DNA of 64,000 nucleotides, taken from positions 248,001 through 312,000 of the forward strand of contig JAHLLQ010000006.1 of assembly GCA_020444065.1 (NCBI GenBank). The letters run 5' to 3'. A program made the translations under genes and the position numbers. Source of the stretch: a bacterium (GTDB taxonomy: Bacteria; Sumerlaeota; Sumerlaeia; SLMS01; JAHLLQ01). The notes under the pieces were generated by a model, which had not been told where the DNA came from, did not search any database, and saw nothing but the letters and a program-made list of their open reading frames with translations. Below are positions 31,746 through 63,522 of this stretch, piece by piece. The stretch's first letter is position 1. Each line of letters opens with the position of its first letter.

Positions 31746-32119
31746 GGATATGATGGAAATGCACGAGGGTGCTTGCTGCAAATGCGACGCACTTCGGGCT
31801 GGGCAACCGTGACAATGGGGAGCACGACGACGTAACCCGCCTACTTTCAACCACATGCATTCAGGCGCTCCTTCTGCGAAGTCGCGGAATGCGCATTGCC
31901 TTCTATAACGTGCGGTTGGAGGCAAACGCGCTGCATGAAGCCGGGTCGACAAATTCAGCGGAATCCCAAGCGATGAGCCTGGTGCGCGTTTCTTGCGTTC
32001 GTTCTAGTCCGGCTTGATTTGGGTGGTTACGGGGTAGGATCTCCATCACATCGCTGAGGATCGTGATCGGTGATCTGCCCCGATGCATACCAGAGCACAA
32101 GAGGATGAGATTCGACAAA
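31746..32119. other. Intergenic region before the metal-efflux operon
   Basis: About 370 bp without a supported gene. It must contain the promoter of the metal-efflux operon. A weak candidate is TTGATT, a 15-bp spacer and TAGGAT at about 32008-32034. I see no clear palindromic metal-regulator operator and no regulator gene. Confidence 0.45.
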
Positions 32120-34204: not shown

Positions 34205-34207
34205 GTC

Positions 34208-42608: not shown

Positions 42609-45600
42609 CTATGGGACGATTTCACGTTCCGCGAGGAGTGCCCGCAGGTCGCTTGCATCGACCATCCCGTCGGTGTTGCGATCCAGGCTGATGGCGCTGG
42701 CCGATGGGTCCGATCTCCCGAGAAGGCAATCCAGGAAGAGTGCCACTCCTCCGTCCCCTCCCGGCTGAGGATTCACCTGAACCCAGGTCTCGGCGGATTC
42801 CCCGAAGACACCAGTGCCTTCGCGCCAGAGTTGCCACGCGGTTCGGTAGGAACCGGGAGTATCCGGCATTCGGGCGGAGAGGCGAATCATTCCATCCCGT
42901 CCACGCTCAACCATGTCCATTCCCCCCCACTCGCCAGCGGTAAAGCGTGTGAGCGGATCGACGGGATCCACAGGTCGAAAGGCAAACCCGTCATCCTTCG
43001 TCCACGGCAGGTTCGAGTCGTTGCGGACGTGCACCAGAATTTCCTGGTCGCTACCGGCATACACGAGGCCCGGGACTTCGATCCCGATGACGGCTCCGCC
43101 AAACCGGGGGACCTCAAACAAGTAGCATGAAGGAGAAGTCTCCGGCGTCCCTGTATTGTCGATGAGCGTGAGCTGCAGCTCGAATGCGACGGTCCCGTCG
43201 TCGGGCCAATTCCACGAGAAATCCGACACCCAGAGACCGTATGTAGGATCGATCCGGTTGAAGGAGAAATCGCCATAGCGCGTCCAGGTCTCCGTCCCTT
43301 GCGGGCGATAGTCGACCTCCAGCCGTTGCGGCTTCTCGGATGTAGAGCCGGCCAAGGCGGTGAGAGGCAAAGGGTTCTGGTCGAGCTCGATATCTTCATA
43401 TCCCACCAGACTCGAGTAGGGCCAGGGCGGGAAAAAGACCGCGGGGAATTCGAGAGTGAGTGAGTCGGCTGCTCCCCAGGAATCCGTTGCGCCGAGAGAC
43501 ACAAACTGCGGTTCGGAGGCGTAGCCGCCAATGTACTGAATGCGCAAGATTCCGGATGCCTCGTCGAGAGTCACGTCGAGGAGAGGGGAGTGCTCAACCG
43601 TCCAGCGGACCGGGTCTCCTTCGAGATCGACTGCGGCAAAGGGGACCTCAAGAGGCTGGGTCGCCCAGAGGGTCTCGTTGAAGTCGGCGGGTTCGGTAAT
43701 TTGCGGGGCCGTGTTACGATCCAGCAGGGTGAACTGCAGATCGGCGGCAAGCGGGTCGCTCCCTCCGGAACTCTGCATTCCGGAGTCGGCGTCTCGGAGA
43801 GTGGCCTCAGCCCCGAGGCCAATGCGGAGAGCTTCGGGAGGAACATTCCAGGCTGCCCGGTACTCTCCCGCAGCCTCGCCGGGTGCCAGGTCAACGCGGG
43901 CGATTTCGACTCCATCCTCGAGCCGTGAGACGAGGATTTCGCCCGAAAGCCCATTTCGCCCAGTGGCTTCTTGAACGGTGAACCGCATGACGCCCTGGGG
44001 AGCAACGAATCCTCCGCGCGACACCACAGGATCGGAAGCGAGGGCCAAGACAACGGGAGCGACCGGATCTGCGGTAGCCTCGACGGCGAGCACAAACGCC
44101 AGTTCGGGCTGGAGCGGGTCGTTTGCCTGAAAGATCGGCGAAGCGACGAGAAGCCCCGGCGCGCCGGCCAGGATGTCGAAATAGAGATCTCGAGATCGGC
44201 CTGCCGCGACCTGGATCGGGCCGGGACGACGTGGAACAAGCCACGAGGGGAGGGAGGTGGGATCGAGTGTTGCCTTCAGGACTCCCCCGCCGGCATTGGC
44301 CAGACGGAGCACGACCATGGAGCGTTGCCCCAGGGCGACCGGAAGAGGCAACTCCCACGCGGTGATCAATCTTGCGGCGGGTGCGGTGTTGTAGCCTGCC
44401 ACAGCGACTGGTCCCATCTCGTCACGGGCAGAGCGTGTCCCATCAGAAACCAGCACCTTGAGGCGCCCGCTTTCGGTTGCAGGCAATTGGGAACAGTCGA
44501 GTGTGTACGTGTTCGCCCCGTACTCGATTGGGAACGGTGGAGCCACTGGCATCCACGAGGCTCCCCCATCGGGGCTGAATTTGACCCAGGCGTAGAGTGC
44601 TTCTCCGCCGTCGGGGTCCCCTGCCTCGAACTGAATTGGGACGGAGCCGCTTAGGGCCTGCCCGGCAAGCGGAGCATTGAGGGCAACCATCGGAGCGGAC
44701 GGGGAAAATGCGATCGTATCGATCGTATCGTCCAAGGTCCCGTCAGCGAGCCGGATCTCGAAACTCGCGGAAGTGACGGCGGGGTCCCATGGGAATCGGA
44801 ACTGGGGAGAACCGGCCAGCCCCCAGTCGTCATCGCGATCGGGGTAGCCGGTCCAACCCGTAGGGACACGCGCTGTGCTTCCATTGGAAAGGGACACGCC
44901 GATGGACCGCGATCCAAGATCAACCTCGTCCGGAACCCACGGTTCATCGATGTCGACGAAGAAGGGCCAGACTTTGTCCATGTCGAAGTGCATGGTGGAC
45001 CACTGCTGACGTTGGAGAAAAACCCCTCCGACATACAGAACTTCCTGGGGGCTGCTGGCTTGGGAAAGCCGCCGACCGGTGCCAACGGTGGCTTCGTTCA
45101 GAATGCGTTCGTAAGTCTCCTCCGTAAGCCATGGTGAGGAGGCGCGGTCATACATGATCGTCTGGAAGTCCGGGTGGAGGGCTCCAGGGGTGTTGTAGAC
45201 CCGCGTGCCCTTGTCAGGATCGTACCCGTTGGCACTGGCTCCGTGATCGCCGTCGCCTTCCTCGTAGTGGTAGTTATCCAGGAACCCAAGGGTGTGGAAG
45301 TACTCGTGAAGGAGGTAGTGGGAGCGGGCAGTAACGCCATCGATCAGGACCACGTGCTCGTAGCGTGGTTCGGAGAGACCATCGGCACCGAAGATACCGG
45401 GGGCGGTTACGCCAACCACAAGGTCCGGCCGGGGGCTCATGGTCTCGCGAAGGCGCTCGAGGTCGGTGAAGTAAGAAAGAGTCTTCCACTTCCAGACAGC
45501 GCTCCATGGTTCGCTGGCCACGAGATCGGGACCGGAAGTGAATTCCACGGGAGCAGGGAAGAACTTCTGGAAGAAGTCGTTCATCGAACCCAGGGAAGCC

Positions 45601-47165
45601 GTGGAGGTCCATGATCCCAGCATCGTCTTGCTGCCGATGGTCGATGCGCCGGACGTCTGGAGACCCACGTAGTGGATGTGGAAGGGGCGATCGCGCATCG
45701 GGATGCGCTGCTCCTGGATCGTCGTACCGCCTATCCCGATGGAAAGTGGAATCTCGTCCCCGAGGTCATCGATCCAGTAGGCCTGGTGGGAATAGAGCTT
45801 AGGAACAGATTCGGGGAGGACGCCATAGAAGAACTCGTTCACGTTCCCCTTCAGGTGCTCGGCGTCTGTGAAATCATCCTGACACAATGCCTTGAGGCCA
45901 GTCAGGTCTGCGGCCTCTTCTCCGTTTTCGAGAATCCGCAGAGTGAAGTCCTCGAACCCCTCGTCCGCGTCGTCATAGGTGGTGGCGCTGTCGAGGATGC
46001 GGAACGTCGCGTGGTAATAGGCTGGGGCCTGAGAGTGCACCTGACTTTGGTGGACGCCATCGACGACTTGGGTGATTTCGGCTCCCATGGCGAGGCGGGG
46101 TGGCAACTTAAGGGTGACCTCTTCAGTAGCGGGGCCGCCGCCGTTAACATCAACTTCCACGAAGCCAGAAGCATCGGTCGTCACCGTCTGATCAACGGCC
46201 CCATCGATTTCGACGAAGGCGCCACCGACAGGACGGTCCTTCAGATCAACCGTGTGGATCTGGAGCTTGCCCTTGAAAGATCGCATATCCGGAACTCGAG
46301 CTCGGTTGTGCCCGTACCCCCCTTCGCCCGTGGAGCGATGCGCTGTAATGGCGGCGTAGGGTGGCGGGGCTGAGATCGGGTTGGCGGTCTCGATGACTTC
46401 GCCGCCTCCGCCGATATCCACGTAGGCTTCGCCTAACTCGTCGGTCGCAACCCAGGGGGAGATATAGTAAGTGGGACAATCATAGCTGGGGAGACAGGAA
46501 GCGTAAACGACCCGGACTTCGAGTCCCTCGTTGGGAATAGGAGCGTTGGCGTTGAACGGATCCGGAGCCACGGCCGTGATCTTGAATGTCAGGTTCAAAA
46601 TGTCGGTGGATGTCGCGATGTTGCTGATTTCGCTGTCTGTCTCATAAGGAAATGCAAGACTGAACGGGTTGGGATCGTCCCAGTCAGCCAAACGGTACTG
46701 CACGTAAACGTGTGAGACGCCGACATCAAAGCGGTGTGAGAAATACACTGAGCCGCTCTCCGGTCCGGAAGCGGAGTAGTAAGATGCAAAGCTGTCATCG
46801 AGTTCCCCGATACGCGCGTCGGATTCGGCGGCATAGGAGATGAAGGTCCCATTGTTCGACCTCACCTCATGGGTGATGACCTCAACATCAGAAGGGAGAA
46901 GATCCGGCGTGTCGTGGATCACGTTGACCATCATCTGCTTATGGCCAACAAAGAAATTCCCCTGCCGAATCAACGGTGAAGGAGCCTCGACCGCAAGAGT
47001 GACGGTGACCGGTTCGCCAGAGGTGGAGAAGTAGTCCGTCCCTGATTGTTCGATCCGCGTCACCGACTCCCAGCCGGGCTGAAGCCCGACAACGGGGTCC
47101 TCGGCAAACAGAGAAATGGTCGCGCAGCTAAGGATAGCAACGAGTAACAAGCCTGTTCTATTCAT
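42609..47165 (-). CDS. Large secreted metzincin-like protease with dockerin-like C-terminus
   Basis: From ATG 47165, preceded by GGGAGGGGAG, the product has 1,518 residues. A signal peptide (RTGLLLVAILSCATISLFA) is followed by beta-rich modules, one of carboxypeptidase-regulatory type (DRPVGGAFVEIDGAVDQTV). A zinc-protease motif HEYFHTLGFLD (HExxHxxGxxD, first His about residue 620) follows, with a Met-turn-like TIMYDRASS about 50 residues further, as in metzincins. Several Ig-like or cadherin-like modules follow (RLADGTLDDTID, ITEPADFNETLWATQPLE). The last 40 residues resemble one and a half dockerin EF-hands (LDRNTDGMVDASDLRALLA). It is likely an extracellular or surface protease. It is transcribed divergently from the NHL/cytochrome cluster. 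Confidence 0.85.
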   Translation of the reverse strand: MNRTGLLLVAILSCATISLFAEDPVVGLQPGWESVTRIEQSGTDYFSTSGEPVTVTLAVEAPSPLIRQGNFFVGHKQMMVNVIHDTPDLLPSDVEVITHEVRSNNGTFISYAAESDARIGELDDSFASYYSASGPESGSVYFSHRFDVGVSHVYVQYRLADWDDPNPFSLAFPYETDSEISNIATSTDILNLTFKITAVAPDPFNANAPIPNEGLEVRVVYASCLPSYDCPTYYISPWVATDELGEAYVDIGGGGEVIETANPISAPPPYAAITAHRSTGEGGYGHNRARVPDMRSFKGKLQIHTVDLKDRPVGGAFVEIDGAVDQTVTTDASGFVEVDVNGGGPATEEVTLKLPPRLAMGAEITQVVDGVHQSQVHSQAPAYYHATFRILDSATTYDDADEGFEDFTLRILENGEEAADLTGLKALCQDDFTDAEHLKGNVNEFFYGVLPESVPKLYSHQAYWIDDLGDEIPLSIGIGGTTIQEQRIPMRDRPFHIHYVGLQTSGASTIGSKTMLGSWTSTASLGSMNDFFQKFFPAPVEFTSGPDLVASEPWSAVWKWKTLSYFTDLERLRETMSPRPDLVVGVTAPGIFGADGLSEPRYEHVVLIDGVTARSHYLLHEYFHTLGFLDNYHYEEGDGDHGASANGYDPDKGTRVYNTPGALHPDFQTIMYDRASSPWLTEETYERILNEATVGTGRRLSQASSPQEVLYVGGVFLQRQQWSTMHFDMDKVWPFFVDIDEPWVPDEVDLGSRSIGVSLSNGSTARVPTGWTGYPDRDDDWGLAGSPQFRFPWDPAVTSASFEIRLADGTLDDTIDTIAFSPSAPMVALNAPLAGQALSGSVPIQFEAGDPDGGEALYAWVKFSPDGGASWMPVAPPFPIEYGANTYTLDCSQLPATESGRLKVLVSDGTRSARDEMGPVAVAGYNTAPAARLITAWELPLPVALGQRSMVVLRLANAGGGVLKATLDPTSLPSWLVPRRPGPIQVAAGRSRDLYFDILAGAPGLLVASPIFQANDPLQPELAFVLAVEATADPVAPVVLALASDPVVSRGGFVAPQGVMRFTVQEATGRNGLSGEILVSRLEDGVEIARVDLAPGEAAGEYRAAWNVPPEALRIGLGAEATLRDADSGMQSSGGSDPLAADLQFTLLDRNTAPQITEPADFNETLWATQPLEVPFAAVDLEGDPVRWTVEHSPLLDVTLDEASGILRIQYIGGYASEPQFVSLGATDSWGAADSLTLEFPAVFFPPWPYSSLVGYEDIELDQNPLPLTALAGSTSEKPQRLEVDYRPQGTETWTRYGDFSFNRIDPTYGLWVSDFSWNWPDDGTVAFELQLTLIDNTGTPETSPSCYLFEVPRFGGAVIGIEVPGLVYAGSDQEILVHVRNDSNLPWTKDDGFAFRPVDPVDPLTRFTAGEWGGMDMVERGRDGMIRLSARMPDTPGSYRTAWQLWREGTGVFGESAETWVQVNPQPGGDGGVALFLDCLLGRSDPSASAISLDRNTDGMVDASDLRALLAEREIVP

Positions 47166-47762
47166 CCGGGACTCCCCTCCCATTAGATCGAGAGGATTCT
47201 GACGACAGAAGGTTTATCCCGTCAACTGCAAGCAATACCGGCAATCCTGGTGGAATTCTTAAATGTCGCCCGACTGATCTTCATACAGCTCGGATACTTC
47301 CGAGGTGATCGGGAGGGATGCGCCCTCCCGAACTCGAGGTGCTCTGGCATCCCTTTCAGGACACATGAGACCTGCAAAATCATTGCAGAGATACGAAGGA
47401 CGCCAAAAGGACGGCTGTGGCTCGTTCGCCCTTTCTCTCCCATGCTGGTTACTCACAACGCCTCCCAGGGCGAATTGGGCTGCGTGGACGTCTGAGATTG
47501 CTATGCCGGATAGGACTTCGTTGGGAGGGTGCACATGCCCTCTTTGGACTTCATTACAAGATGGCCATTTGGCGAGTTTCACCACGCTGCGAATGTGGCC
47601 CTGATCCCACTGTGCCAACATAGTCACGGTTGAATTCATTATTGACTTCACCCCCAACGAACCTCCAGAACCTCTAGAAATGCCATCCTCGGTGATGGAC
47701 TAAACCCTCTAGATATCAGCCAGCGAGAGGACGTTGGCGGAGGGATACGAGGTGAGAGAACA
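47166..47762. other. Long divergent intergenic region upstream of the cytochrome cluster
   Basis: About 600 bp with no supported gene. It must hold the promoters of the protease and of the NHL/cytochrome operon. It contains a perfect 8-bp hairpin (CGGGAGGG-atgcg-CCCTCCCG, 47310-47330) close to a CCCTTTCAGGAC motif reminiscent of the CCCTTTCAGGGC element in the 30-kb repeat array. A minus-strand open frame at 47259-47657 has no ribosome binding site or recognisable domain and is not annotated. Confidence 0.55.
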
Positions 47763-48731
47763 ATGAGACGATCAAAGGTCTTGTCTGGTTGGACAGTTGC
47801 ATTAAGTCTACTTGTCTTGATTGCAGGTACCCAGGCGGTGAGTGGTGTAACAATCGAGTACCCGATGCGAACGATTCTGACTGACACGAGTTCGCCCGCA
47901 AGGCTGGCGCTCGATAGTTCGCAGAATCTCTACATCACAGATCCTTGGGGAACACGAGTCCTTGTCTATGATTCGACGGGGTCTGCAGTCACCCAGTTCA
48001 CACCATCTCAGACCGCGGCTCCGCTCGGAATCGCCATTTGGGCGGACGGGAGTTTTGCGCTCTCGGACGCTATGACGGGTTCGGTCGACTTGTACGATGC
48101 CGGGCAGAACTACGTCGGCTCGCTCGGAGCGGGCGATGGGGAGTTTGGCCTTCCGTGCGACCTGGAGATCGATCGCTCAACTGGCCATCTCTACGTGGTT
48201 GATTCGGCGAGCGCTCAGATCAGCGAGTACGATTCCACCGGAAGCTTCATTGGTTCGTTCGGAGCCTCTGGGACAGGTCCCAGCGAATTCATCAAACCGA
48301 CCGGCATCTCCATCAGCGAAGACGGAACTCGGCTGTATGTAGCCGATCAGGCGAACGGACGCGTTCAGGTCTTCGATTCCAACAAGACGTATCTTCGCGA
48401 GTTCGGTTCGATGGGTTCGCTGCCGGGGCAATTCGTCAGAGTTCAAGGAATCGCTGCAAGCACGAGCGGGTTCGTTTGCGCATCCGATTCATTCTTGAAT
48501 TCTGTGCAACTCGTCGATTCCTCCGACGGGGCTTGGCAAACCGACTTCGGAGAGATGGGGCTGCTGCCAGGAGACGGGTTCCTGCAAGCCGTCGATGCCG
48601 AACTGGACGAGACCAACGGCCTCCTGTACGTCGCTTCGCACAATACGCTCGCCGTCGAGGTCTTTCAGTCCGCCGGCGTGATTCCGACAGAAAGCGCTGT
48701 GCCTGACTGGTACATTCTGGAACAACCATAG
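47763..48731 (+). CDS. Secreted NHL-repeat beta-propeller protein
   Basis: The 322-residue product has an N-terminal signal sequence (VALSLLVLIAGTQAVSG) and about five or six NHL-type blades, for example LALDSSQNLYITDPWGTRVLVYD, EIDRSTGHLYVVDSASAQ and RLYVADQANGRVQVFD. NHL propellers bind proteins or other polymers outside the cytoplasm. GAGGTGAGAG precedes ATG 47763. It opens the NHL - cytochrome - NHL - cytochrome series and is clearly related to the second NHL protein at 52348, though it lacks that protein's N-terminal Ig-like domain. A structural or docking role for the following cytochrome is inferred from context only. Confidence 0.88.
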   Translation: MRRSKVLSGWTVALSLLVLIAGTQAVSGVTIEYPMRTILTDTSSPARLALDSSQNLYITDPWGTRVLVYDSTGSAVTQFTPSQTAAPLGIAIWADGSFALSDAMTGSVDLYDAGQNYVGSLGAGDGEFGLPCDLEIDRSTGHLYVVDSASAQISEYDSTGSFIGSFGASGTGPSEFIKPTGISISEDGTRLYVADQANGRVQVFDSNKTYLREFGSMGSLPGQFVRVQGIAASTSGFVCASDSFLNSVQLVDSSDGAWQTDFGEMGLLPGDGFLQAVDAELDETNGLLYVASHNTLAVEVFQSAGVIPTESAVPDWYILEQP

Positions 48732-48812: not shown

Positions 48813-51800
48813 ATGATTCGCCATTTCCGGATCACGCTTCTCATTTCTGCACTTTCCATTCTCTGCGGTCTCGCTCTTGGGGCCGACGCCCCACACGATC
48901 AAACACAGGGCATCGATTGCGACTCCTGCCATACGATCCCATTGAATGCTTTGGCATTGATAACGACACCGACAGGCGGTCCCAGTCTTTGCCTGAGTTG
49001 CCACACGGTAGGCAGTGTTCCGTACGACATGGCACTGCAGTCCGAGAGCCAGGCGATCCCTGGTATCTCGGGTTACTCCCATCGCTGGGACTCGAATCTG
49101 CTGCAGTATGTTCACGTTCTGACTCCGGCCGGTGAAACCGGTTCGGTCGCACTCACCGGAGACTATGCGGAAGCGACGAGCTACACGCTGAGTGCCATGA
49201 TCACATCAGGCGGCGCGGTTGGAGTCGCCCAGTTCGCCTGGGCTGACAACTGGGGGAATTCCGGAACCGATACCGTTCAGTCCAGCGTTGCCGTTGGTCA
49301 GGGGCTTTCGCTGCTGTTCGAAGATCATCCCAGTACGACATCGTTTCCTCTGGACATGCGCTTTGAGGCCTTCGCCCTCCCGCTCGAAGTCGATACGCCG
49401 GCGATCGCAGATGCTTTGTCTCACGATATCGTTGTGTGCAACACTTGTCACGATCAGCACGCAAACACGTTCCCTCCATTCCTTCGCGTAGACAACTCGA
49501 GCGACGTTTTATGCGCGTCCTGTCACCCCGATCGTTCAATGGGAACCTGGGCGGACGATCCGATCAATAACGTTGGAAACCACCCGACCGGGGTTCTGAT
49601 GCCCTCGGTGTCCTGGTATGCAACGTCGATCGCTCCGCTCGAGCTCGAGGACCACGGCACAACTGCCGATGCGTCCGATGATACGGTACAATGTCTCTCC
49701 TGCCACTCCGCCCATCATGGCGACAGTAACACGAATGCAGATCCGTCGATGCTCGGCGAAGGCGATGGGAATCTGCTCCGAATGGCGAACGATGCGACCC
49801 TCTGCAAGACGTGCCATCTGTACGAGGATCACAGCGGACTTACGTGCTCGAATTGCCACGAACCGCACGGAGCGAGCAACAAGCGCCTCGTCCGCGACTG
49901 GCTGAATGGCCAGCCGGCTACCTACCAGTCGGCGGATGACTTCCTGAGTGGATCGCCGGACTACGATGGCGTGTGCGAGCGCTGCCACACGGCAACTGCT
50001 TATCATCAGGACAACGCGGGCGGCGATCATTCGCACTACGCGACGACCGATTGCATGCAGTGCCATTCTCACGTCACTGGGTTCGTGCCTCAGATGGTCG
50101 ATTGCCTGTCATGTCACCGCAATGAGCTCAATGTGACAGCCGATGGGATCGCGACGCGGTCCATCAGTGAAGATTTCGAGAATGAAGGTGGGCATCATCC
50201 CTTCACGTATGATCGCTCGGGAGATCTTTCCGATCCACAGAACAACAACTGCCTGATCTGCCACCTGGAGGATTCCTACGATAATCCGCTGCATGGCGAT
50301 GAGACTGTCGATCTGGATCTGGATCCGGATGGTTCTGGAGATCAGGAATGGCAAACGTATCCTGGCTCGCGTCACTCCTGGTGCGTCGATTGTCATGACG
50401 GTGACAATCCCAACCCGGCTTACCGTTTGTCCGGTCTCATTGCTTCCGACAAGTCCGACATGGCTACTGTCTCCAGTCACCGTGACGACTACCCGAATTC
50501 GGGTGCGGTGTTTGGCGGGCTTTGCGATTCCTGCCACGATGATGGGCATCGCGTCCGCGTTCGCTTCTATTCGCCGATGTACGGTGGCGGGCACGAAGAA
50601 GAAACCTGCTATGGATGCCACGGTGGGTTTGCCAATGTGAGCGTGAACGAAGGCACGACACGCTACATGGAGAATATGAAGGTCGCCTTTGTCGGCACCG
50701 GTGCGGTCCATCCGCGTTCACAACACATGGATCCTTACAAGGAGATTGGCGATGGCGCTGTCGTCTGCAGAAACTGCCACGATCCCCATCGATTGGATCA
50801 CGACACGAACCTTCTCTGCGATCCGGACGACCGGTCAACGTCATGGGGAGGAGATGTCGACAACGCATGGTGTCTGACTTGCCATGATGGCACGCAAGCG
50901 GACGCACCGCTTCACCTCGACATCGATGTCACCGGAGTGGACTGCGCGTCGTGCCACCTGGCTCACGCCTCGACGAATAAGAATCTCCTGCTGATCGACG
51001 AACTCTCGACGTACACGTTGTCACTGACACCGGATCCGGCTTCTGTGCCGGTGAACTCATTCCAACAGTTCCAGCCGGTCATCTCGCCGTCGGCCTACTT
51101 CCTATCGCCAGGTGGTTTGCAGCGCCAGGCGGATTGGGGACTCGAAGGCCTGACTGGCGGAAGCGCGGGCCAGCGTTTCGACTTCGATGCCAACATCCCG
51201 TTCGACCGAACGGAGGGCTACGATCCATCCGGCTGGGGACTAATCAACGTCACCGATGACGGGACCGTCTCGGGCGGGCCAAGCCTCGTGACTGACCTGA
51301 ATGTCTTCGTCGATGTTCCGCATCACTACCGCGGAGACCTTGAGGTCTGGCTGAGAAATCTGACGACTGGCGAGGAAGCTCAGATCGTCCAGTCCAATTG
51401 GAATGATGGAACCGATAACCTGTACAAGATCTACGATAGCGAATCGCCGAATGCCCCGAACACCGATGTGACAGAGCTTCCCGGAAAGACCGGCACTGGC
51501 ATCTTGCTCGGTTACATCAACCGCGATGGGTACACCGGCCCGAACAATCTGGAATACACGATTACGATCACTGCCGAAGGCGACATGGGAACAGCGCTCT
51601 TCGACTGGTCCGACAACCAGGGCGGTTCCGCAACGGACGTGGTGACATCTCTCACCACCCCATTGCAATACGGCGCCATGGCGGGATTCTATCACCTGCA
51701 CGCCTATTACGGTGGTGTGTCGCCGCAGTTCAAGGTCGGCGACTCGTGGACCTACAAGCCGATGGCGTTCTGGAATACGGCGCCGGATTCACTGACGGTC

Positions 51801-52322
51801 TTCAACGATCGCAACTCGAACGGCGATTGGCAGATCGAGGTCCATGACACGTGGCCGTCCGACAATCCGACCGATCCTGCGTCGCCGTCGTTCTGCTACT
51901 TCCGATCCTGGGCACTTCTCTTCAATTCGGGCCTGATCGGTACGATCGATGAACAGGGTCTCTTCAAGGGACTGTTCGCCGGCACCGGACGCGTCCAGGC
52001 CACGCTCCATCATGGTCGAATCTGGCCGATCCAGAGTGGACTCTCGGACTTCGTCTTTGAAGATCCGCTGCCGATCTCGGCAACCTCCGACGTCACAGTG
52101 ACAAGCACTCGAGCCGCGACTTCCGACAACGCATCGGTTTCACAATCGGTGTCGGAGACTCACAGGCAAATCACCCGCCCATTCGACAGGGGCGAAGTAG
52201 AGATGGAACGCCGAGCAACATGGGCAGAAGAGACAAAACGAAACCTTGCTGCAACCGGACTGACGCCACACGCACCTGAGCTTCTGCAAACGGTCAGTTG
52301 CGCCAGTTGCCACAAGCACTGA
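48813..52322 (+). CDS. Secreted 18-heme c-type cytochrome with split P-domain
   Basis: The 1,169-residue product has a Sec signal (HFRITLLISALSILCGLALG) and eighteen CxxCH c-heme sites. Seventeen lie between residues 36 and about 715 (CDSCH, CLSCH, CNTCH onward to CASCH at 711); the eighteenth (CASCHKH) sits seven residues from the C-terminus. Between them, about residues 826-1040 form a proprotein-convertase P-domain (DLNVFVDVPHHYRGDLEVWL ... NGDWQIEVHDTW), interrupted around 900-993 by a module (EYTITITAEGDMGTALFDWS) of which a similar copy occurs near residues 120-190. GGGAGTAA precedes ATG 48813. Many His residues outside the motifs could be distal ligands. Likely a surface or periplasmic electron carrier. 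Confidence 0.92.
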   Translation: MIRHFRITLLISALSILCGLALGADAPHDQTQGIDCDSCHTIPLNALALITTPTGGPSLCLSCHTVGSVPYDMALQSESQAIPGISGYSHRWDSNLLQYVHVLTPAGETGSVALTGDYAEATSYTLSAMITSGGAVGVAQFAWADNWGNSGTDTVQSSVAVGQGLSLLFEDHPSTTSFPLDMRFEAFALPLEVDTPAIADALSHDIVVCNTCHDQHANTFPPFLRVDNSSDVLCASCHPDRSMGTWADDPINNVGNHPTGVLMPSVSWYATSIAPLELEDHGTTADASDDTVQCLSCHSAHHGDSNTNADPSMLGEGDGNLLRMANDATLCKTCHLYEDHSGLTCSNCHEPHGASNKRLVRDWLNGQPATYQSADDFLSGSPDYDGVCERCHTATAYHQDNAGGDHSHYATTDCMQCHSHVTGFVPQMVDCLSCHRNELNVTADGIATRSISEDFENEGGHHPFTYDRSGDLSDPQNNNCLICHLEDSYDNPLHGDETVDLDLDPDGSGDQEWQTYPGSRHSWCVDCHDGDNPNPAYRLSGLIASDKSDMATVSSHRDDYPNSGAVFGGLCDSCHDDGHRVRVRFYSPMYGGGHEEETCYGCHGGFANVSVNEGTTRYMENMKVAFVGTGAVHPRSQHMDPYKEIGDGAVVCRNCHDPHRLDHDTNLLCDPDDRSTSWGGDVDNAWCLTCHDGTQADAPLHLDIDVTGVDCASCHLAHASTNKNLLLIDELSTYTLSLTPDPASVPVNSFQQFQPVISPSAYFLSPGGLQRQADWGLEGLTGGSAGQRFDFDANIPFDRTEGYDPSGWGLINVTDDGTVSGGPSLVTDLNVFVDVPHHYRGDLEVWLRNLTTGEEAQIVQSNWNDGTDNLYKIYDSESPNAPNTDVTELPGKTGTGILLGYINRDGYTGPNNLEYTITITAEGDMGTALFDWSDNQGGSATDVVTSLTTPLQYGAMAGFYHLHAYYGGVSPQFKVGDSWTYKPMAFWNTAPDSLTVFNDRNSNGDWQIEVHDTWPSDNPTDPASPSFCYFRSWALLFNSGLIGTIDEQGLFKGLFAGTGRVQATLHHGRIWPIQSGLSDFVFEDPLPISATSDVTVTSTRAATSDNASVSQSVSETHRQITRPFDRGEVEMERRATWAEETKRNLAATGLTPHAPELLQTVSCASCHKH

Positions 52323-52347: not shown

Positions 52348-53520
52348 ATGAGAATCACTGCACTCGTGGTGGGATGCCTCTTGGCTGGCGCCGGGACTTG
52401 TTCCGCCGCCAACCAACCACCGAAGATCGAGGGATTTGTTGTCACGCCTGCCGTCTGGAGTGCCGGCGACGAGGTTCAAGTTCGTTGCCGCGCGACCGAT
52501 CCGGAAGGGACGGACTTGACCTTCAGTTGGACAGCAGCCGACGGGACGATTCTCGAGGCCGAGCCTGGGGCCGACCGCATTCGTTGGGCTCTACCGGGCG
52601 AATCCGGGAACTTCATGGTGAAGGTCCAGATCGCGGATCGCTCGGGGAAGATGACGAACGCCGAGTTCCTTCTTCCAGTCGGACCGATTGCCGCACACGC
52701 GGCACTCGGCGGCATCGGCTTTGCCCCGGCGCGCATTGCGGTCACCGCGGACGAGACGCTCTGGGTAACCGATCCGATCGGAAACCGGGTCGCCCAATTC
52801 TCCAAGGGCAGCCTCAAGCTGGCCGAATTTCCGACGGGTCCTCAGCCCGTGGGACTGGCAGTGCTGGATAATGGAACGGTTGTTGTCGGTGAAGACGGCC
52901 TCGATCGAATCGCTCTCTATTCGCCCGATGGAACCTTCATCGACACACTCGGCAGCGGCATCGGAGAGATCGGACGCCCCACGGCGATCGCGGTGGATAA
53001 CCAGTCGGGACGAATCTACGCCATCGACTCGGAATCCGCTCGGGTACGCGTCTTCACAACAAATGGAGATCCCGCAACGTCTTGGGGCGGGCACAGCCTC
53101 TTCGAGTATCCGGTCGACGTTGCCGTCAATCCGAATGCCGGCGAGGTTTATGTCGCCGATCAGCAGAAGCTTGAGATCTTCGCCTTCAGCCCGAGCGGAA
53201 CGCTCTTGCGCCGATTCGGAACCGCCGGATATGCGCCGGGACAATTCGGACGCATCCAGGCACTGGAAGTTGATGGCCAGGGGCAGATCCTTGTTCTGGA
53301 TTCCTACCAGAACCACATCCAGTTGCTGACTCCGACCGGAGATCACATCACAACGTTCGGCTACTTCGGGAACTGGCGTGGCAGCCTGGCAAACCCAATC
53401 GACCTGGGCGTCATTCCATCGGAACGCGTCTATGTGACATCCCCCGGAACCCAGACAATCCAGAGCTATCGATATTGGACATCAAGTCGCCTGTCCGGCG
53501 ACGCGTGGACATTTGAATGA
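52348..53520 (+). CDS. Secreted Ig-like plus NHL-repeat beta-propeller protein
   Basis: The 390-residue product has a signal peptide (MRITALVVGCLLAGAGTCSA), a PKD/Ig-like domain at about 25-110 (ATDPEGTDLTFSWTAADGT, FMVKVQIADRSGKM), and about six NHL blades (IAVTADETLWVTDPIGNRVAQF, AIAVDNQSGRIYAIDSESARVRVF, AVNPNAGEVYVADQQKLEIF). It is a longer relative of the NHL protein at 47763. It begins 26 bp after the 18-heme cytochrome, with AGAGG directly before the ATG, and its stop overlaps the next cytochrome's ATG (ATGA), so the genes form one transcription and translation unit. A partner role for the following cytochrome is inferred. Confidence 0.9.
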   Translation: MRITALVVGCLLAGAGTCSAANQPPKIEGFVVTPAVWSAGDEVQVRCRATDPEGTDLTFSWTAADGTILEAEPGADRIRWALPGESGNFMVKVQIADRSGKMTNAEFLLPVGPIAAHAALGGIGFAPARIAVTADETLWVTDPIGNRVAQFSKGSLKLAEFPTGPQPVGLAVLDNGTVVVGEDGLDRIALYSPDGTFIDTLGSGIGEIGRPTAIAVDNQSGRIYAIDSESARVRVFTTNGDPATSWGGHSLFEYPVDVAVNPNAGEVYVADQQKLEIFAFSPSGTLLRRFGTAGYAPGQFGRIQALEVDGQGQILVLDSYQNHIQLLTPTGDHITTFGYFGNWRGSLANPIDLGVIPSERVYVTSPGTQTIQSYRYWTSSRLSGDAWTFE

Positions 53521-56500
53521 TGCGAAAACTTGTTATCGTCTTCTCAGCCCTTTTGGTTCTCACCCTCCCGCAATGTCTCTATGCGCAGGCGGCACCGCAT
53601 AACGTCGGATGCGCGGCCTGTCACCGCCAGACGTTGCAACCGTCCGCCGCCGGGACCCTAGCAACGGGGAACGCAGGGCTCTGCATCTCCTGTCACAATC
53701 CGACAGCAGTCGGTGGCGCGGTTTCTGTGCAAGCATCGCAGGCAGCCGAACCGGGCCAGTCGGGATCTTCTCACGCGTGGAATGTCGCGCCGATCAACGA
53801 GGAACTCGACACGCTCGCTCCGCAGATTGGAGCTGTCAGCGGTGCATTGCTTGATGGAATGATCGTCTGCAGCACTTGCCACGATCAACATTCGCATGAC
53901 TCCGGCGAGCCATTTCTGCGCGCTTCGAATGATAATGACGAGCTGTGCCTCGACTGCCATCGTGCGCGAGACCTGGGCCGGTGGGTTGACGATCCCGCCG
54001 CCAACATCGGCAGCCATCCCGTGCGCGTCTCTATCGATCCCACCAATCAAGACATGCACCCGCCAGCCGATGGCGGCTACTACTTGCCATTGAAGGAAGA
54101 GGGGATTGTCTGCAGCACATGCCACTCGGTTCACAGAGGCTACTCGGATGAGACGCTGTGGTTCCACGCGACGGGCGGAGATGCAGAGAGAACTTCCGCC
54201 GTCGTCGATGGAGCCGGATGGACAACGGATACTCTTGTCGGTCGGGAGGCCACGTTTATCTCCAGTGGTGAGAACGACCGGGAGATTCGATCCATCATCG
54301 CGAACGATTCCGACACGCTCTGGTGGAATCTCCCGCTTCCGGTTGCGGTCGCCCCAGGCGATGGCATTGCTCTGGCTCAGCCAGGCGAGGGCGACGGGTA
54401 TCTTCTGCGCGCCCCTAACGATGAAACTCTCTGTCAGGCCTGCCATTTGTATGAAGGACACCCGACGGGCGAACGGTTCAGTTGTCGAGACTGCCACGAA
54501 CCACACGATACGACGAATATCCTTCTCGTTGCCGACGTGATCAACGGGCACGCAGTCGACTATTCCAGCAAGACTCCGCCCGACTTCATTCATGGCGCGC
54601 CCGATTACGACGGCGTTTGCGAGACTTGCCACACAAACACCCGCTACCATCGCAACAACTCCACGGGCAGCCACGATCACAACAATGGAACGGCCTGTAC
54701 CGACTGCCATCTGCACTCTGAAGGATTCAAGGCAGAGTGCGGCACTTGCCACGCGGCAACGCCGGAAACACTCACGACCGGTTCGCATCCGATGCACTTC
54801 GCGGATAGCACTGGACCGGGGATCGCGACCTGTTCCGCGTGCCATGGCGAAGGAGCCGACACAGCGTCTCATGCAGGCCACAACAACGGCGTGGTGAACT
54901 TCAATGGCGTTGCCACCGAGTCGCTTGCCCAGACTTCCGCCTGTAATACCTGCCACAGTCCATCAGGGTTCTTCGACGGCGTAAACGATTCGAACGTCGG
55001 CGCGAAGGCCCTGTGGGCAACCGGCGCCTACTCCTCCCCCGGCGTGCTTTCCGCATCCGCAACCATGTGGTGCGAAGGATGTCACGATGACAACCCGCAA
55101 ACGGTCGAGAATGAATCGTCGCTTGTGGATGGCGTATCTGCGCCGTCGCGGCTTGGCGACAACACAACGTTCGGATTCCTGGTCACCGGGCACGGTCGTT
55201 CCGGCTCGTCATATCCGGCCGAATCCTGGCAAGCCGAGAGCGATGCTGGGAATCCGCCTGGCGCATTGGACTGCACCGCGTGTCACGATGCATCGGCACC
55301 GCACTTCGACGGACAGCCCGGGAGCGTTGATCGACTTCGCAATGGGTTTGCGCCGGATCAGAACAACGATTCCTGCACGCAATGTCACAAGGAAGGCGAA
55401 GCCGCTTGGGGGCCGCCGGAGTACTTCGTCGATTCCGTCGGGTACGAGGCGTCCGAGCACGGTCGATTCCTTTGCACCGCCTGCCACGATGTCCACGGCG
55501 ACTCCGGAACGGGAGCGGCCATGACAACCAGCGTGGAAGAGGAACTCTGCGCACGATGCCACAACGATGTCGTTCAGGCATTCGGTGGCCTAAGCCATCA
55601 TGATATCGATGATGCCGAGCAGGCGGTGAACGGCTCGCGCATCGAATGCACGATGTGCCACAACCCGCACATCGCCAGTGAAACCAACCCACTGATTTCC
55701 TTGGATGACCCCACGAGCGGCTGGACTGCCGACACGCGCGGTTTCTGCCTGGTTTGTCACGATGGCGATCCGCCATCCGGCGTGGTTTACCCCGCCCAGG
55801 CCCCGGGGGCCAGTTGGGATCAGAGCGGCTACGAAGATCATCCGCACGACAACCCACAGTATTCCTGCGACGATTGCCATGGTCCGCATGGATCGACGAA
55901 TCTCCTGCTCGTCAGGCCCGTGGTGAACGGCCGATCGGTTGTATTCACGAGCCGCGAGGCCGGCGGATTCACGAGTGGCGATCCTGACTACAACGGCATC
56001 TGCGAAGTCTGTCACACGCAGACGGCCTATCATCAGAACAACCCAGCAGGCGATCACACACACAACACCCAGGCTCCTTGCACAGCCTGTCACGCACACG
56101 AGCAGGAATTCACGGCGTCCTGCGGAAGCTGTCACGACGCCACGCCGGAGACGCTGAACACCGGCTCGCATGCGACTCACTTCGGGACTGAAATCGGCCC
56201 AGGCATTCAGTCCTGCGACGAGTGCCATGGCAATGGCGCGCAGTTCGGAATGCACGCCGGACACAACAATGGAACCGTGAACTTCCTTGAAGGTGCTCAG
56301 GCGGGCCTGACGAGTACGGCCGCTTGCGATTCCTGCCACAGTCCGGACGGAATCAGCGATGGCGTCAGTGAAGCCAAGGGCGCATGGGCAACCGGCGTGT
56401 ACCTGGCTCCTGGAACGCTTCATCCGGCCCACGCCCGTTGGTGTCAGAGCTGCCACGACGACGATCCGGCAACAGCCGCGACGAATGAATCCGCAGTCAT

Positions 56501-57710
56501 CGGAGGAGTCTACGCTCCTCCGGTCTACGGCGATTCCCAGACGTACGGTTATTATGTGACGGGACACGGCCGAAAGGATACGCGATTCCCCACGATGTCC
56601 TGGCAGTCCGAAGGAGCTAACGGAAATCCGGCGGCAAACATGGCCTGCAGTTGGTGCCACGATCTGACCGCCAAGCACATCGACGGTTCGGCCGGCACAG
56701 AGTTGCGCTTCAAGCCCGGGTTTGCTCCCGACCAGGACAACACGGGCTGCAACCAGTGCCATCGCGAAGGAGGCGCGGGCAACAGCCTGCCCACCTACTA
56801 CACGCACTCGGCCGCTTACGAAGACTCTGCCCACGGCGGACTTCTTTGCACCGCCTGCCACGATCCTCACGGTCAGGGCGGTCCCGGTACCGCGATGTCA
56901 CCGGAGATTGAGGAAGCTCTGTGCGCCGAATGTCACCAGAATGAGATGAACGAATTCGGCATGACCAACCATCACGACATTGATGATGCGGAACAAGCTA
57001 CCAACGGTTCGCGCGTCGAATGCACGATGTGCCACAATCCCCACAACGGAACAAAGGGCGCCAGCCTGGCGAACCCGGACAATCCGACGCTGCCTTGGGG
57101 CGACGCCGGCATGCGCGAGTTCTGTCTCGCCTGTCACGATGCCCAGGCGCCGGATGCCGTGGAATTCCCGGCGACATCGCCCGGAACCGGATGGGATCAG
57201 ACAGCCTTCATTGGAACACGCCACGACGTGACCTTGGGCGGCGACTGCACTCTCTGTCACAACGCTCATGGTTCAGATTCGCTGGCGACGCTGCGGGCCA
57301 ACTACGCGGTGGCCGACTACACGAGTTCGTCCACTTCGGCCTACGCCCTGTGCTTCACGTGCCACGACTCTCAACAGATCCTGAATGGTGATGATGCGTT
57401 CCGCGAATACCACAAGAAGCACATCATTGAAGAGCGATCGCCGTGCATCGCGTGTCACAATGCGCATGCCCCGTATGATGCGAACGAGAGTGGACTGATT
57501 TACTTCGAATACGGCCTGAATCATGGGTTCAATATCTCGCTCACGACCGGCGGAACCACCTATACCCCATCAAGCGCCTTCCTCGATACAGGAGACGATC
57601 GCGGGCGCTGCTACCTGCGCTGCCACGGCGAAGGCCACAATGGAGAAAGCTACACGGGCTATCGAGTCACGACGGTAGATTGCCTGCAATGCCACCAGAC
57701 GCAGCCGTAG
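53517..57710 (+). CDS. Giant secreted multiheme cytochrome, 36 CxxCH plus one CxxxCH
   Basis: The 1,397-residue product begins with a Sec signal (VIVFSALLVLTLPQCLYAQ) and carries 36 CxxCH sites, the first at residue 32 and the last at 1389, plus one CYLRCH (CxxxCH) at 1365. Residues 30-190 parallel the first cytochrome (CSTCHDQHSHD, CLDCHRARDLGRWVDDP). Sites 8-20 (from residue 368) and 21-33 (from residue 829) form two homologous 13-heme modules, offset by 461 residues, sharing for example GSRIECTMCHNPH/GSRVECTMCHNPH and CTACHDVHG/CTACHDPHG. It overlaps the preceding NHL gene (ATGA; a second ATG follows at 53520). The protein is probably exported and matured by cytochrome c biogenesis, and may serve extracellular electron transfer. 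Confidence 0.93.
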   Translation: MMRKLVIVFSALLVLTLPQCLYAQAAPHNVGCAACHRQTLQPSAAGTLATGNAGLCISCHNPTAVGGAVSVQASQAAEPGQSGSSHAWNVAPINEELDTLAPQIGAVSGALLDGMIVCSTCHDQHSHDSGEPFLRASNDNDELCLDCHRARDLGRWVDDPAANIGSHPVRVSIDPTNQDMHPPADGGYYLPLKEEGIVCSTCHSVHRGYSDETLWFHATGGDAERTSAVVDGAGWTTDTLVGREATFISSGENDREIRSIIANDSDTLWWNLPLPVAVAPGDGIALAQPGEGDGYLLRAPNDETLCQACHLYEGHPTGERFSCRDCHEPHDTTNILLVADVINGHAVDYSSKTPPDFIHGAPDYDGVCETCHTNTRYHRNNSTGSHDHNNGTACTDCHLHSEGFKAECGTCHAATPETLTTGSHPMHFADSTGPGIATCSACHGEGADTASHAGHNNGVVNFNGVATESLAQTSACNTCHSPSGFFDGVNDSNVGAKALWATGAYSSPGVLSASATMWCEGCHDDNPQTVENESSLVDGVSAPSRLGDNTTFGFLVTGHGRSGSSYPAESWQAESDAGNPPGALDCTACHDASAPHFDGQPGSVDRLRNGFAPDQNNDSCTQCHKEGEAAWGPPEYFVDSVGYEASEHGRFLCTACHDVHGDSGTGAAMTTSVEEELCARCHNDVVQAFGGLSHHDIDDAEQAVNGSRIECTMCHNPHIASETNPLISLDDPTSGWTADTRGFCLVCHDGDPPSGVVYPAQAPGASWDQSGYEDHPHDNPQYSCDDCHGPHGSTNLLLVRPVVNGRSVVFTSREAGGFTSGDPDYNGICEVCHTQTAYHQNNPAGDHTHNTQAPCTACHAHEQEFTASCGSCHDATPETLNTGSHATHFGTEIGPGIQSCDECHGNGAQFGMHAGHNNGTVNFLEGAQAGLTSTAACDSCHSPDGISDGVSEAKGAWATGVYLAPGTLHPAHARWCQSCHDDDPATAATNESAVIGGVYAPPVYGDSQTYGYYVTGHGRKDTRFPTMSWQSEGANGNPAANMACSWCHDLTAKHIDGSAGTELRFKPGFAPDQDNTGCNQCHREGGAGNSLPTYYTHSAAYEDSAHGGLLCTACHDPHGQGGPGTAMSPEIEEALCAECHQNEMNEFGMTNHHDIDDAEQATNGSRVECTMCHNPHNGTKGASLANPDNPTLPWGDAGMREFCLACHDAQAPDAVEFPATSPGTGWDQTAFIGTRHDVTLGGDCTLCHNAHGSDSLATLRANYAVADYTSSSTSAYALCFTCHDSQQILNGDDAFREYHKKHIIEERSPCIACHNAHAPYDANESGLIYFEYGLNHGFNISLTTGGTTYTPSSAFLDTGDDRGRCYLRCHGEGHNGESYTGYRVTTVDCLQCHQTQP

Positions 57711-57794: not shown

Positions 57795-57825
57795 CGAAGC
57801 CGCCGAGTAACCCTCGGCGGCTTCG
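57795..57825. terminator. Strong hairpin between cytochrome operon and tRNA-Arg
   Basis: A perfect 13-bp stem (CGAAGCCGCCGAG / CTCGGCGGCTTCG, loop taacc) lies 85 bp after the giant cytochrome gene and 20 bp after the 3' end of the convergent tRNA. The plus-strand side continues TATCAGTGCTTTG and the minus-strand side GTGTTTCTGG. It probably terminates both transcripts. Confidence 0.75.
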
Positions 57826-60697: not shown

Positions 60698-62083
60698 ATG
60701 AAGCGTCTTTCGATTGCCTTGTGGGCACTTATTATCGTGCTTGGGCTTGGCGATGTCGCCAATGCGTCCGGCGTATTCAACTATCAGGGCCATCTAAACA
60801 GAGATGGGCACTCCTTCACCGGCACGGCGGACTTCTATTTCGCGATCTACCGCAAAGATGGATCCACAGACACATTCCTGTGGGTGAACGATGATGGCGA
60901 TCTCTCAGTCCTTCCGCCCTCCTCCGGCGTCCCCGTGGATGTCGATGAGGGGCGCTTCTCGCTGGAGATCGGCGATACGTCCCTCCCGAATATGTCAGCC
61001 CTTCCTGCTGCCATCTTTGAAGATGACGCCCAACTCTTCATGCGTGTGTGGGTCGATGCCGGCGATGGAGTCCAACAGCTCTCGCCGGATAAGCGAGTTC
61101 ATTTGGGTCCTGGATTCGGCTATGGAGATGAAGACGTCCTGACGATCTACGTCGATGGGATTTCGGGAGATGACTTGAACTCGGGTCTACGGCCAAACCG
61201 CGCCAAAAAGACCATCCAGGGTGGCATCGATGCATTGCCGCCGGTGATACACGGCGAAGCAATCGTGCAAATCGCCGATGGGATTTATGAGGAGGGAGTT
61301 GCAATTCACAGCGTGACGCTGACTGGGAATCTCGCCTCGCTGACCATTCAGAAGAATCCCGGAACGCCGGGAGATGTCGTCTTGCAGCCGGGAAGTTCGG
61401 GAGAAACAACGGGACTCGACATCGCGGGGACCGATCGACCCATCACTATCACCGGCTTGACAGTCCAGGGCTTCAGTTTCGCCGGCGTTCAGATTTCCAG
61501 ATCCTCTGTCGATCTGGAAGACTGCACCATCAAGGACAACCTGGGAGCTACTGGATGGGGAATCTACGCGCTGCGAGGTGCTTCGGCTTCCTTGAAGAAC
61601 TGTACTCTGGACAACAATCACATGGGCATTTACGCCGATCACTTCTGCGATATCGGGCTCTACGACACCACCATCTCCAACTCCGAAGACACCGGTGTTT
61701 ATGCCCGATTCTCGACCGTGTTGCACACGAATACGGCGACGATTCAGAACTCCGGGGGTGATGGAATCTATCTTTGGATGAATTCCAATGCGGACCTTCG
61801 GTACACGACCCTCCAGGGCAATGCGGGAGCTGGGCTGCGTGGTACGAAGCAGTCCTGTGCGATGTTGATCGAAGTTGATTCCATTCAAAACGGAATTGGC
61901 ATCTGGTCCGATCGGGGCAGTTATCTCTTTCTCGGAAATGACTCCCATTCGATCTCGAACAACACACTGGGCCTGCGAGCCATTCACCGCAGCACGATTG
62001 AATATTATGGAGGATCGGTCACCATCAGCGGAAACGGAACCAACTCTGAAGAAGATTCAACCAGCGTGATTCTGGTAAACTGA
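60698..62083 (+). CDS. Secreted right-handed beta-helix (PbH1) protein, copy 1
   Basis: The 461-residue product has a signal peptide (ALWALIIVLGLGDVANA), an N-terminal beta-sandwich-like domain opening with VFNYQGHLNRDGHSFTGTAD (residues 25-145), and a parallel beta-helix (about 150-455) with repeated coils such as VDLEDCTIKDN, ASLKNCTLDNNHMGIY and ISNSEDTGVY. The opening motif is common in exported beta-rich proteins. The helix resembles NosD/pectate-lyase-type folds, but no catalytic Asp set is visible, so binding or structural roles are as likely as polysaccharide cleavage. GGGAGAGA precedes the ATG. It is a tandem paralogue of the next gene. Confidence 0.88.
   Translation: MKRLSIALWALIIVLGLGDVANASGVFNYQGHLNRDGHSFTGTADFYFAIYRKDGSTDTFLWVNDDGDLSVLPPSSGVPVDVDEGRFSLEIGDTSLPNMSALPAAIFEDDAQLFMRVWVDAGDGVQQLSPDKRVHLGPGFGYGDEDVLTIYVDGISGDDLNSGLRPNRAKKTIQGGIDALPPVIHGEAIVQIADGIYEEGVAIHSVTLTGNLASLTIQKNPGTPGDVVLQPGSSGETTGLDIAGTDRPITITGLTVQGFSFAGVQISRSSVDLEDCTIKDNLGATGWGIYALRGASASLKNCTLDNNHMGIYADHFCDIGLYDTTISNSEDTGVYARFSTVLHTNTATIQNSGGDGIYLWMNSNADLRYTTLQGNAGAGLRGTKQSCAMLIEVDSIQNGIGIWSDRGSYLFLGNDSHSISNNTLGLRAIHRSTIEYYGGSVTISGNGTNSEEDSTSVILVN
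60955..61245 (+). repeat. Near-identical 291-bp tract, copy 1 (partner 62391-62681)
   Basis: This stretch matches 62391-62681 at 290 of 291 bases (one A/G difference at 61207/62643). Identity stops abruptly on both sides although the proteins remain homologous. It encodes the end of the N-terminal domain and the start of the beta-helix. Confidence 0.95.
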
Positions 62084-62130
62084 CTCTGCCTCATGTTACC
62101 AGACGATCAATCCTGTAGGGAGACTTTGAC

Positions 62131-63522
62131 ATGAGAAGAGTGCGGATGAAACTCATACTCTTGCTGGCCATCGTTGTATTCATGGCGGATTTTGCTGCAG
62201 CGGCAAGTGTTTTCAACTACCAGGGCCACCTGAAAAAGGATGGGGCGAACTTCACCGGGACAGCGGACTTCTACTTCGCAATTTACCGAAAGGATGGTGC
62301 AACCGAGACCTTCCTTTGGGTCAATGACGATGGTGATCTGTCGGCCTTGCCTCCGGCCAGTGGCGTGCCTGTGACAGTGGAGGACGGCCACTTCTCGCTG
62401 GAGATCGGCGATACGTCCCTCCCGAATATGTCAGCCCTTCCTGCTGCCATCTTTGAAGATGACGCCCAACTCTTCATGCGTGTGTGGGTCGATGCCGGCG
62501 ATGGAGTCCAACAGCTCTCGCCGGATAAGCGAGTTCATTTGGGTCCTGGATTCGGCTATGGAGATGAAGACGTCCTGACGATCTACGTCGATGGGATTTC
62601 GGGAGATGACTTGAACTCGGGTCTACGGCCAAACCGCGCCAAGAAGACCATCCAGGGTGGCATCGATGCATTGCCGCCGGTCATCAATGGCGAGTCGATT
62701 GTTCAGATTGCCGACGGGATTTACGAGGAGGGCGTATCTGTTTTCAACATTGCATTGGCAGGCAAGAACGCCTCGCTCCTGGTTCGGAAGGATCCTGATA
62801 CACCGGGCGATGTGATCCTGCAGCCGGGCTCTACTGGCGCTGTTTATGGCTTTAGAATCGCTGGAGTTCCACAGACAATCTCCTTCAAAGGTCTAACGAT
62901 TCAGGGCTATACATCCGCCGGGATGATGGTGGACGCCTCGCGGGTTGCCGTAGAAGATTGCACGTTCCAGGACAACGTTGGTGCCTACGGACGATGCGGC
63001 ATCTATGCTCTGAAGGCGTCTTCAATCGACCTGTTGGATTGCACATTGGACAATAACCAGGAGGGCATTCGTGGACTCCACAATTCCTATGTCCGGGTAC
63101 GCAATTCAACGGTCACCAACTCGCAGGACACAGGCGTCCGCGTTGGCTATTCCACCTACTTCTACATGGAGAATTGCACGATTGATGGAGCCACCAATCA
63201 TGGCATCTACCTGAATGACAACGCCTCCGCGGACATTCGGGATACAACTGTGAGAGGCTGCGGGCTGGCGGGTCTTAACTGCATCACAAACTCCTATGCC
63301 ATGCTGATCCGAATCACCAGCGATGGTAATAAGTATGGCATCTGGAGCGATCGTGGCGGATACGTGATGATGGGAAGCAACAACCACCAGATTCTGAACA
63401 ACGACATCGGCCTCTACGCAATCCACCGGAGTACGATCGAGTACTACCTGGGTACAGTGACGCTTGGCGGCAACAGCGCCGACGAGTCCGTTGCTTCGAG
63501 CGGGCTGATTATCAAGAACTGA
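62131..63522 (+). CDS. Secreted right-handed beta-helix (PbH1) protein, copy 2
   Basis: The 463-residue product is a paralogue of the preceding protein with the same plan: signal peptide (LILLLAIVVFMADFAAA), opening domain VFNYQGHLKKDGANFTGTAD, and a beta-helix with coils such as VAVEDCTFQDN, IDLLDCTLDNNQEGIR and VTNSQDTGVRV. Outside a 291-bp tract that is nearly identical in DNA, the two genes have diverged clearly. GGGAGA lies before ATG 62131, and the gene starts 47 bp after copy 1, so the pair is likely co-transcribed. The last coils (GIWSDRGGYVMMGSNNHQI) match the end of copy 1 closely in protein. Function unknown, probably extracellular. Confidence 0.88.
   Translation: MRRVRMKLILLLAIVVFMADFAAAASVFNYQGHLKKDGANFTGTADFYFAIYRKDGATETFLWVNDDGDLSALPPASGVPVTVEDGHFSLEIGDTSLPNMSALPAAIFEDDAQLFMRVWVDAGDGVQQLSPDKRVHLGPGFGYGDEDVLTIYVDGISGDDLNSGLRPNRAKKTIQGGIDALPPVINGESIVQIADGIYEEGVSVFNIALAGKNASLLVRKDPDTPGDVILQPGSTGAVYGFRIAGVPQTISFKGLTIQGYTSAGMMVDASRVAVEDCTFQDNVGAYGRCGIYALKASSIDLLDCTLDNNQEGIRGLHNSYVRVRNSTVTNSQDTGVRVGYSTYFYMENCTIDGATNHGIYLNDNASADIRDTTVRGCGLAGLNCITNSYAMLIRITSDGNKYGIWSDRGGYVMMGSNNHQILNNDIGLYAIHRSTIEYYLGTVTLGGNSADESVASSGLIIKN
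62391..62681 (+). repeat. Near-identical 291-bp tract, copy 2 (partner 60955-61245)
   Basis: This is the second copy of the tract inside the paralogous beta-helix gene, offset by exactly 1,436 bp. The sharp borders indicate recent gene conversion or recombination between the tandem genes. Confidence 0.95.

Follow-up and report, generated by a model that had tools for sequence, protein, structure and literature searches.

Very large multiheme cytochromes and the growth of heme chains by copying have both been described before. The PCC3 cytochromes have 63 and 85 heme sites, with heme-site repeats and low residue-to-heme ratios (PMC5566968), and those of the Gallionellaceae have 10 to 35 sites (PMC10734462). 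Multiheme evolution has been said to proceed chiefly by a few modes, one of them duplication followed by divergence (PMC7829351), and for MtrA such growth has been proposed from NrfB/STC-like chains (PMC7198977). Big cytochromes built by module duplication, as well as larger ones with up to 85 hemes, have therefore already been reported, and the 37-site cytochrome analyzed here is a further example. No description of a tandem unit reaching 13 hemes, or of the present NHL-paired array, was found in a literature search that was thin on subscription papers.

Five known systems were compared with this locus. First, PCC3 of Sideroxydans, Leptothrix, and the Gallionellaceae (PMC5566968, PMC10734462) is similar by description, with very large secreted cytochromes (10 to 85 sites), low residue-to-heme ratios, and heme-site repeats. 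However, the PCC3 cluster encodes a five-TM inner-membrane protein and a porin together with a second cytochrome, and only the last of these is present here; the partners are instead NHL propellers and an 18-heme paralogue. Second, UetJ (11 to 12 sites, as opposed to 37 here) is encoded with the NHL proteins UetHI, again a likeness by description (PMC10734462), but the porin, the prolyl isomerase, and the triheme UetDEG of that system were not recognized beside our array. Third, GSU1996 and GSU2210 are single chains of repeated heme modules, as is the 37-site protein (PMC10138318). In GSU1996, the repeat consists of three hemes of the c7 type, arranged as four triheme domains, compared to 13 hemes here (PMC10138318), and the solved structure of GSU1996, in which neighboring hemes lie 3 to 5 Å apart edge to edge, was not among the sequence matches of a PDB search with the 37-site cytochrome. 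Fourth, the decaheme chain of MtrA has been proposed to arise by duplication of a smaller one (MtrA/NrfB; PMC7198977), but there the unit comprises about five hemes and MtrB serves as porin partner, whereas no porin is found here. Finally, the 11+1-heme CX3CH cytochromes of the class (L053, L057, L058, and L063) share the C-terminal 140 residues with the CX3CH site and have an NHL lipoprotein encoded directly upstream. They lack the duplicated 13-heme module and lie within a full conduit-like cluster.

The window, that is, the whole 64,000-nucleotide stretch of DNA that was analyzed, encodes a 1,397-aa multiheme c-type cytochrome on the plus strand (53517 to 57710). A direct motif count on the translation of this ORF gave 36 CxxCH motifs and one CxxxCH, exactly as the initial annotation had claimed. 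The protein contains 75 cysteines, 74 of which belong to heme motifs; the other, C20, is in the signal peptide. The N terminus is signal peptide-like, and neither a canonical lipobox nor a sorting signal was seen in the protein sequence. Only one other multiheme frame, the 18-heme ORF at 48813 to 52322, was detected in a six-frame scan of the window. There are 37.8 residues per heme in the whole protein and 35.5 in the 13-heme unit, close to the low residue-to-heme ratios that have been linked to conductive wires (PMC5566968).

Comparisons with protein families placed the cytochrome in broad groups. The doubled-CXXCH and cytochrome c7 families PF09699 and PF14522 were matched at 148.1 and 128.7 bits (curated cut-offs of 20.6 and 24.8 bits), and Pfam also gave an MtrC/MtrF-like match. 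The DmsE/MtrA-type decaheme model TIGR03508 scored 153.2 bits, under its NCBIfam cut-off of 192.2, and the OmcA/MtrC decaheme model TIGR03507 scored 50.1 bits, under its cut-off of 209.3. Among the PDB matches found by sequence similarity, there were no filament subunits of the OmcS, OmcE, or OmcZ type and no solved structure spanning the 13-heme module; NrfB (2ozy) was weakly matched by the module profile (E value of 8e-5). AlphaFold2 on the 13-heme unit, with a three-row alignment, reached a pLDDT of 28.5.

The most conspicuous feature of the protein is a tandem repeat. The initial annotation predicted a continuous diagonal at an offset near 461 residues, and self-alignment with the chain cut at residue 770 recovered it, pairing residues 312 to 770 with 772 to 1229 at 239 of 462 identical positions (52%) and a score of 1370. 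The identities are split mainly over offsets of 458 (162 identities) and 461 (133 identities) because of small indels. Since generic multiheme cytochromes align weakly via their motifs, the similarity might be thought to reflect merely the CxxCH spacing and a shared multiheme composition. This explanation has practically no chance of being correct and is refuted by the controls: shuffling all linker residues with the heme motifs fixed gave scores of 161 ± 21 and never more than 192, and a different chain cut gave a score of 1336 compared to 154 ± 21 in shuffles of the same kind. In addition, the single linkers are themselves similar. Those following sites 7 to 19 match those following sites 20 to 32 one to one, with 33 to 62% identity (for example, 18 of 40 residues after sites 7 and 20), and the linkers VTGHGR, FAPDQ, and DDAEQA cited in the initial annotation are all at matching positions in both copies. 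Outside these limits, the identity falls to background, 14% for the linkers after sites 6 and 19 and 17% for those after sites 20 and 33. This means that the copied unit comprises sites 7 to 19 and 20 to 32, with sharp edges at sites 7, 20, and 33. Thus, the one-to-one repeat claimed earlier is real, but its limits, given as sites 8 to 20 and 21 to 33, were placed one site too far downstream. By linker comparison and self-alignment, unit 1 spans residues 312 to 771 (54450 to 55829, plus strand) and unit 2 spans residues 772 to 1237 (55830 to 57227, plus strand).

A finer architecture was apparent within the chain. The 37 sites can be laid out as two sites, a five-site block T, an eight-site block H, a second T, a second H, a third T, and a four-site tail. 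The T blocks (sites 3 to 7, 16 to 20, and 29 to 33) pair only with T blocks and the H blocks (sites 8 to 15 and 21 to 28) only with H blocks, both in this protein and in the 18-heme neighbor. Against motif-fixed shuffles, z was 33.9 for H1-H2, 27.5 for T1-T2, 22.4 for T0 and the T0 of the neighbor, about 10 for H and the neighbor's H, and 8.7 for T0-T1, the values of the weak pairs being somewhat flattering as the segment limits were picked after viewing the motif spacing. T0 (sites 3 to 7; 53832 to 54506, plus strand) is thus a diverged relative of T1. It contains a non-heme insert of about 90 aa, and site 7 doubles as its last site and the first site of unit 1. As read from the sequence, the 13-heme duplication is only the last layer, with T present three times and the gene itself lying within a repeated NHL-MHC pair.

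The C-terminal domain (sites 33 to 36, residues 1244 to 1385; 57246 to 57671, plus strand) is conserved in the 11+1-heme cytochromes of the class, and its best-kept part, residues 1249 to 1385, contains two CxxCH sites (34 and 35) along with the CX3CH motif. A tail with CX3CH near the cytochrome end was found in at least 10 class genomes, and the complete proteins that were read have 11 CxxCH motifs and one CX3CH. This conservation makes CYLRCH (residues 1365 to 1370; 57609 to 57626, plus strand), which has the same spacing in the class relatives, a credible 37th heme site. The 37-site protein has one more CxxCH after it. Ten of the class matches contained in-frame stops, for which selenocysteine was considered and rejected; the stops are ordinary gene ends after CX3CH...Y.

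The initial annotation called for a search for proteins with a single module of like motif order. One such protein is encoded two genes upstream of the 37-site cytochrome, and others occur in two further phyla. A good example is a single-copy 16-heme protein of G125, from another phylum, whose sites map in order to sites 3, 4, and 5, then 8, 9, 11, 12, 13, 14, and 15, and then 16, 17, and 18; this mapping independently supports the T/H architecture. A like site order was seen in an 11-heme protein of G125, in a fragment from G275 (sites 11 to 18), and in the neighboring 18-heme paralogue. The single-module cytochrome of G275 (L072, G275:C81, 1108 to 3764) is split over two reading frames, which may reflect a frameshift or an error in the sequence.

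Trees were built on sites 11 to 18, the part common to all rows. Units 1 and 2 were sisters relative to the modules of the other phyla with a support of 100/99 under LG+G4, and a four-row tree also joined them (100/100); with a mixture model and long branches, the support dropped to 90/98. A seven-row version that took in the long MHC18 and 15-heme sequences could not be used, and few relatives were sampled. The identities were 52% between the two units, 47 to 48% between the units and G275, and 40 to 41% between the units and G125. These data bear on whether the two units could have come from a fusion of separate paralogous genes, or of two NHL-MHC pairs, rather than from a tandem duplication within one gene. 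The raw material for a fusion is present, as paralogous pairs adjoin one another here and in G014. Yet the two units are each other's closest relatives, their edges do not coincide with the ends of genes, and neither sites 1 and 2 nor the CX3CH tail occurs between them, which makes a fusion improbable. The claimed whole-module tandem duplication is therefore supported by its sharp edges, the one-to-one linkers, the single-module relatives, and the sister position of the copies.

Relatives of the module were rare among the genomes searched. No match with an E value of 1e-25 or better was found in 39 other genomes of the phylum, and the phyla to which G125 and G275 belong yielded no further members (2 and 7 genomes searched, respectively). 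At least 2 of about 385 sampled genomes had a module relative at an E value of 1e-20, a lower bound given that scoring was limited to four candidates in each genome. A genome-contig scan with both units returned weak generic multiheme matches only, and there were no matches to them in plasmids or viral contigs. This patchy distribution suggests that a single-module gene may have spread by horizontal transfer.

The duplication is old. At fourfold-degenerate third positions of identical residues along the extended diagonal, 31% agree, compared to 29% expected by chance from the base composition, so the duplication is older than synonymous saturation. With silent sites saturated and the protein still about 52% identical, the copies have been under long purifying selection. 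Both look constrained at candidate ligands as well: 18 of the 20 non-motif histidines of unit 1 are kept in unit 2, compared to 183 of 401 (46%) other linker residues (Fisher P = 7e-5). Eighteen kept candidate distal histidines are enough for 13 hemes, and bis-His ligation may thus be inferred in each copy.

The cytochrome is the last gene of a four-gene array on the plus strand. The order is an NHL beta-propeller gene (47763 to 48731), the gene for the 18-heme paralogue (48813 to 52322), a second NHL beta-propeller gene (52348 to 53520), and the 37-site cytochrome gene (53517). The first three genes are separated by 81 and 25 nt, whereas the stop of the second NHL gene overlaps the cytochrome start by 4 nt (ATGA). 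The second NHL protein has an N-terminal Ig/PKD-like stretch. The paralogue has a single T-H'-T' module and a non-heme C-terminal part; similar non-heme stretches occur in its N- and C-terminal parts (z of 13).

Similar pairs were found elsewhere. In the same genome, an NHL gene is followed by a 15-heme cytochrome gene through an ATGA junction (contig 6, ∼30.7 to 33.5 kb; L055) and another by a 12-site cytochrome gene on contig 1 (L053). G014 has an array of NHL, 24-heme, NHL, and 12-site genes (L057, G014:C26, 3288 to 10093), in which the 24-heme cytochrome (4229 to 7246) has an internal duplication of a different module, residues 312 to 635 versus 645 to 973, with 111 of 350 residues identical (32%) and a score of 346 compared to 91 ± 15. 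In G125, NHL genes occur in alternation with genes for 9-, 16-, and 11-heme cytochromes, which carry long non-heme regions of the LamG and Ig-like types (L071, G125:C310, 4091 to 16869). NHL-MHC pairing and internal module copying therefore recur in the group. It is possible, although we hold this only tentatively, that the pairs form a mobile cassette family in which the heme number (11, 12, 15, 16, 18, 24, or 37) is tuned by intragenic module copying and the propeller is a dedicated partner that builds or anchors heme chains of variable length.

The contig 1 pair lies in a conduit-like cluster that encodes 11- and 13+1-site cytochromes, a 687-aa protein with no Pfam match, which could be a porin, an NHL lipoprotein, and the 12-site cytochrome. 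In the L063 version, there is also a protein with 5 hemes, as well as a cytochrome b561-like part. Across the class (L063, L058, L057, and L053), this cluster comprises 5-heme, 11-heme (with the cytochrome b561-like part), and 13+1-heme proteins, a TPR or thioredoxin-like protein, a protein of ∼690 aa with no Pfam match (a possible porin), an NHL lipoprotein, and the 11+CX3CH cytochrome. It looks like an electron conduit and was matched to no named one. The genome also encodes ResB/CcsA heme attachment proteins.

It is fairly probable that this is a secreted cytochrome enlarged by intragenic tandem duplication of a 13-heme unit and acting with its NHL partner as a long electron conductor and/or store. 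The ancestor would have been a single-module protein of two sites, T, H, T, and the tail, and a tandem duplication within the gene would have added the second 13-heme unit to give the present 37 sites. Heme would be covalently attached at all sites with bis-His ligation, forming one continuous chain that conducts and/or stores electrons in the periplasm or at the cell surface. The wire of the initial annotation is accordingly a predicted function. The NHL partner may hold or assemble the cytochrome, and the separate contig 1 cytochrome cluster may feed it. A role in carrying or storing electrons outside the cytoplasm is probable; the place of the protein in the electron path is only inferred because no porin or inner-membrane redox gene was recognized in the array. 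The missing porin, together with a signal peptide lacking a canonical lipobox or sorting signal, would also fit a protein that is mainly a periplasmic electron store (capacitor), or a multiheme reductase, rather than an extracellular conductor. In Geobacter, both GSU1996 (12 hemes) and GSU2210 (27 hemes) are located in the periplasm, and a capacitor role has been proposed for the former (PMC10138318). We consider such a role the less likely one, though plausible, as beta-rich inserts and lectin-like domains in family members, along with the NHL partners, give some hint that the protein is located outside, and the active-site signatures of known multiheme enzymes were not recognized in it.

The tandem duplication shows with unusual clarity how a heme chain can be extended by a whole large module. 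Since both the array itself and other phyla provide single-module relatives, it can be tested directly whether the extra 13-heme unit simply lengthens the chain. The array also opens the role of NHL propellers beside multiheme cytochromes to testing.

Downstream of the array, a 13-bp G+C-rich hairpin (57795 to 57825), likely the end of the transcription unit, separates it from an opposite-strand tRNA-Arg gene, which is accompanied by an ammonium transporter gene. A protease-like ORF lies farther upstream. On the minus strand, 42609 to 47183 encodes a 1,524-aa secreted protein with no Pfam match, a metalloprotease-like HEYFHTLG motif, and a dockerin-like C-terminal end. Elsewhere in the window, consecutive genes at 32063 to 40646 encode a CusB-like adaptor in which a heavy-metal-binding domain is repeated six times, a CusA-like pump, and two OEP proteins, and tandem genes at 60698 to 63522 encode right-handed beta-helix proteins of 461 and 463 aa.
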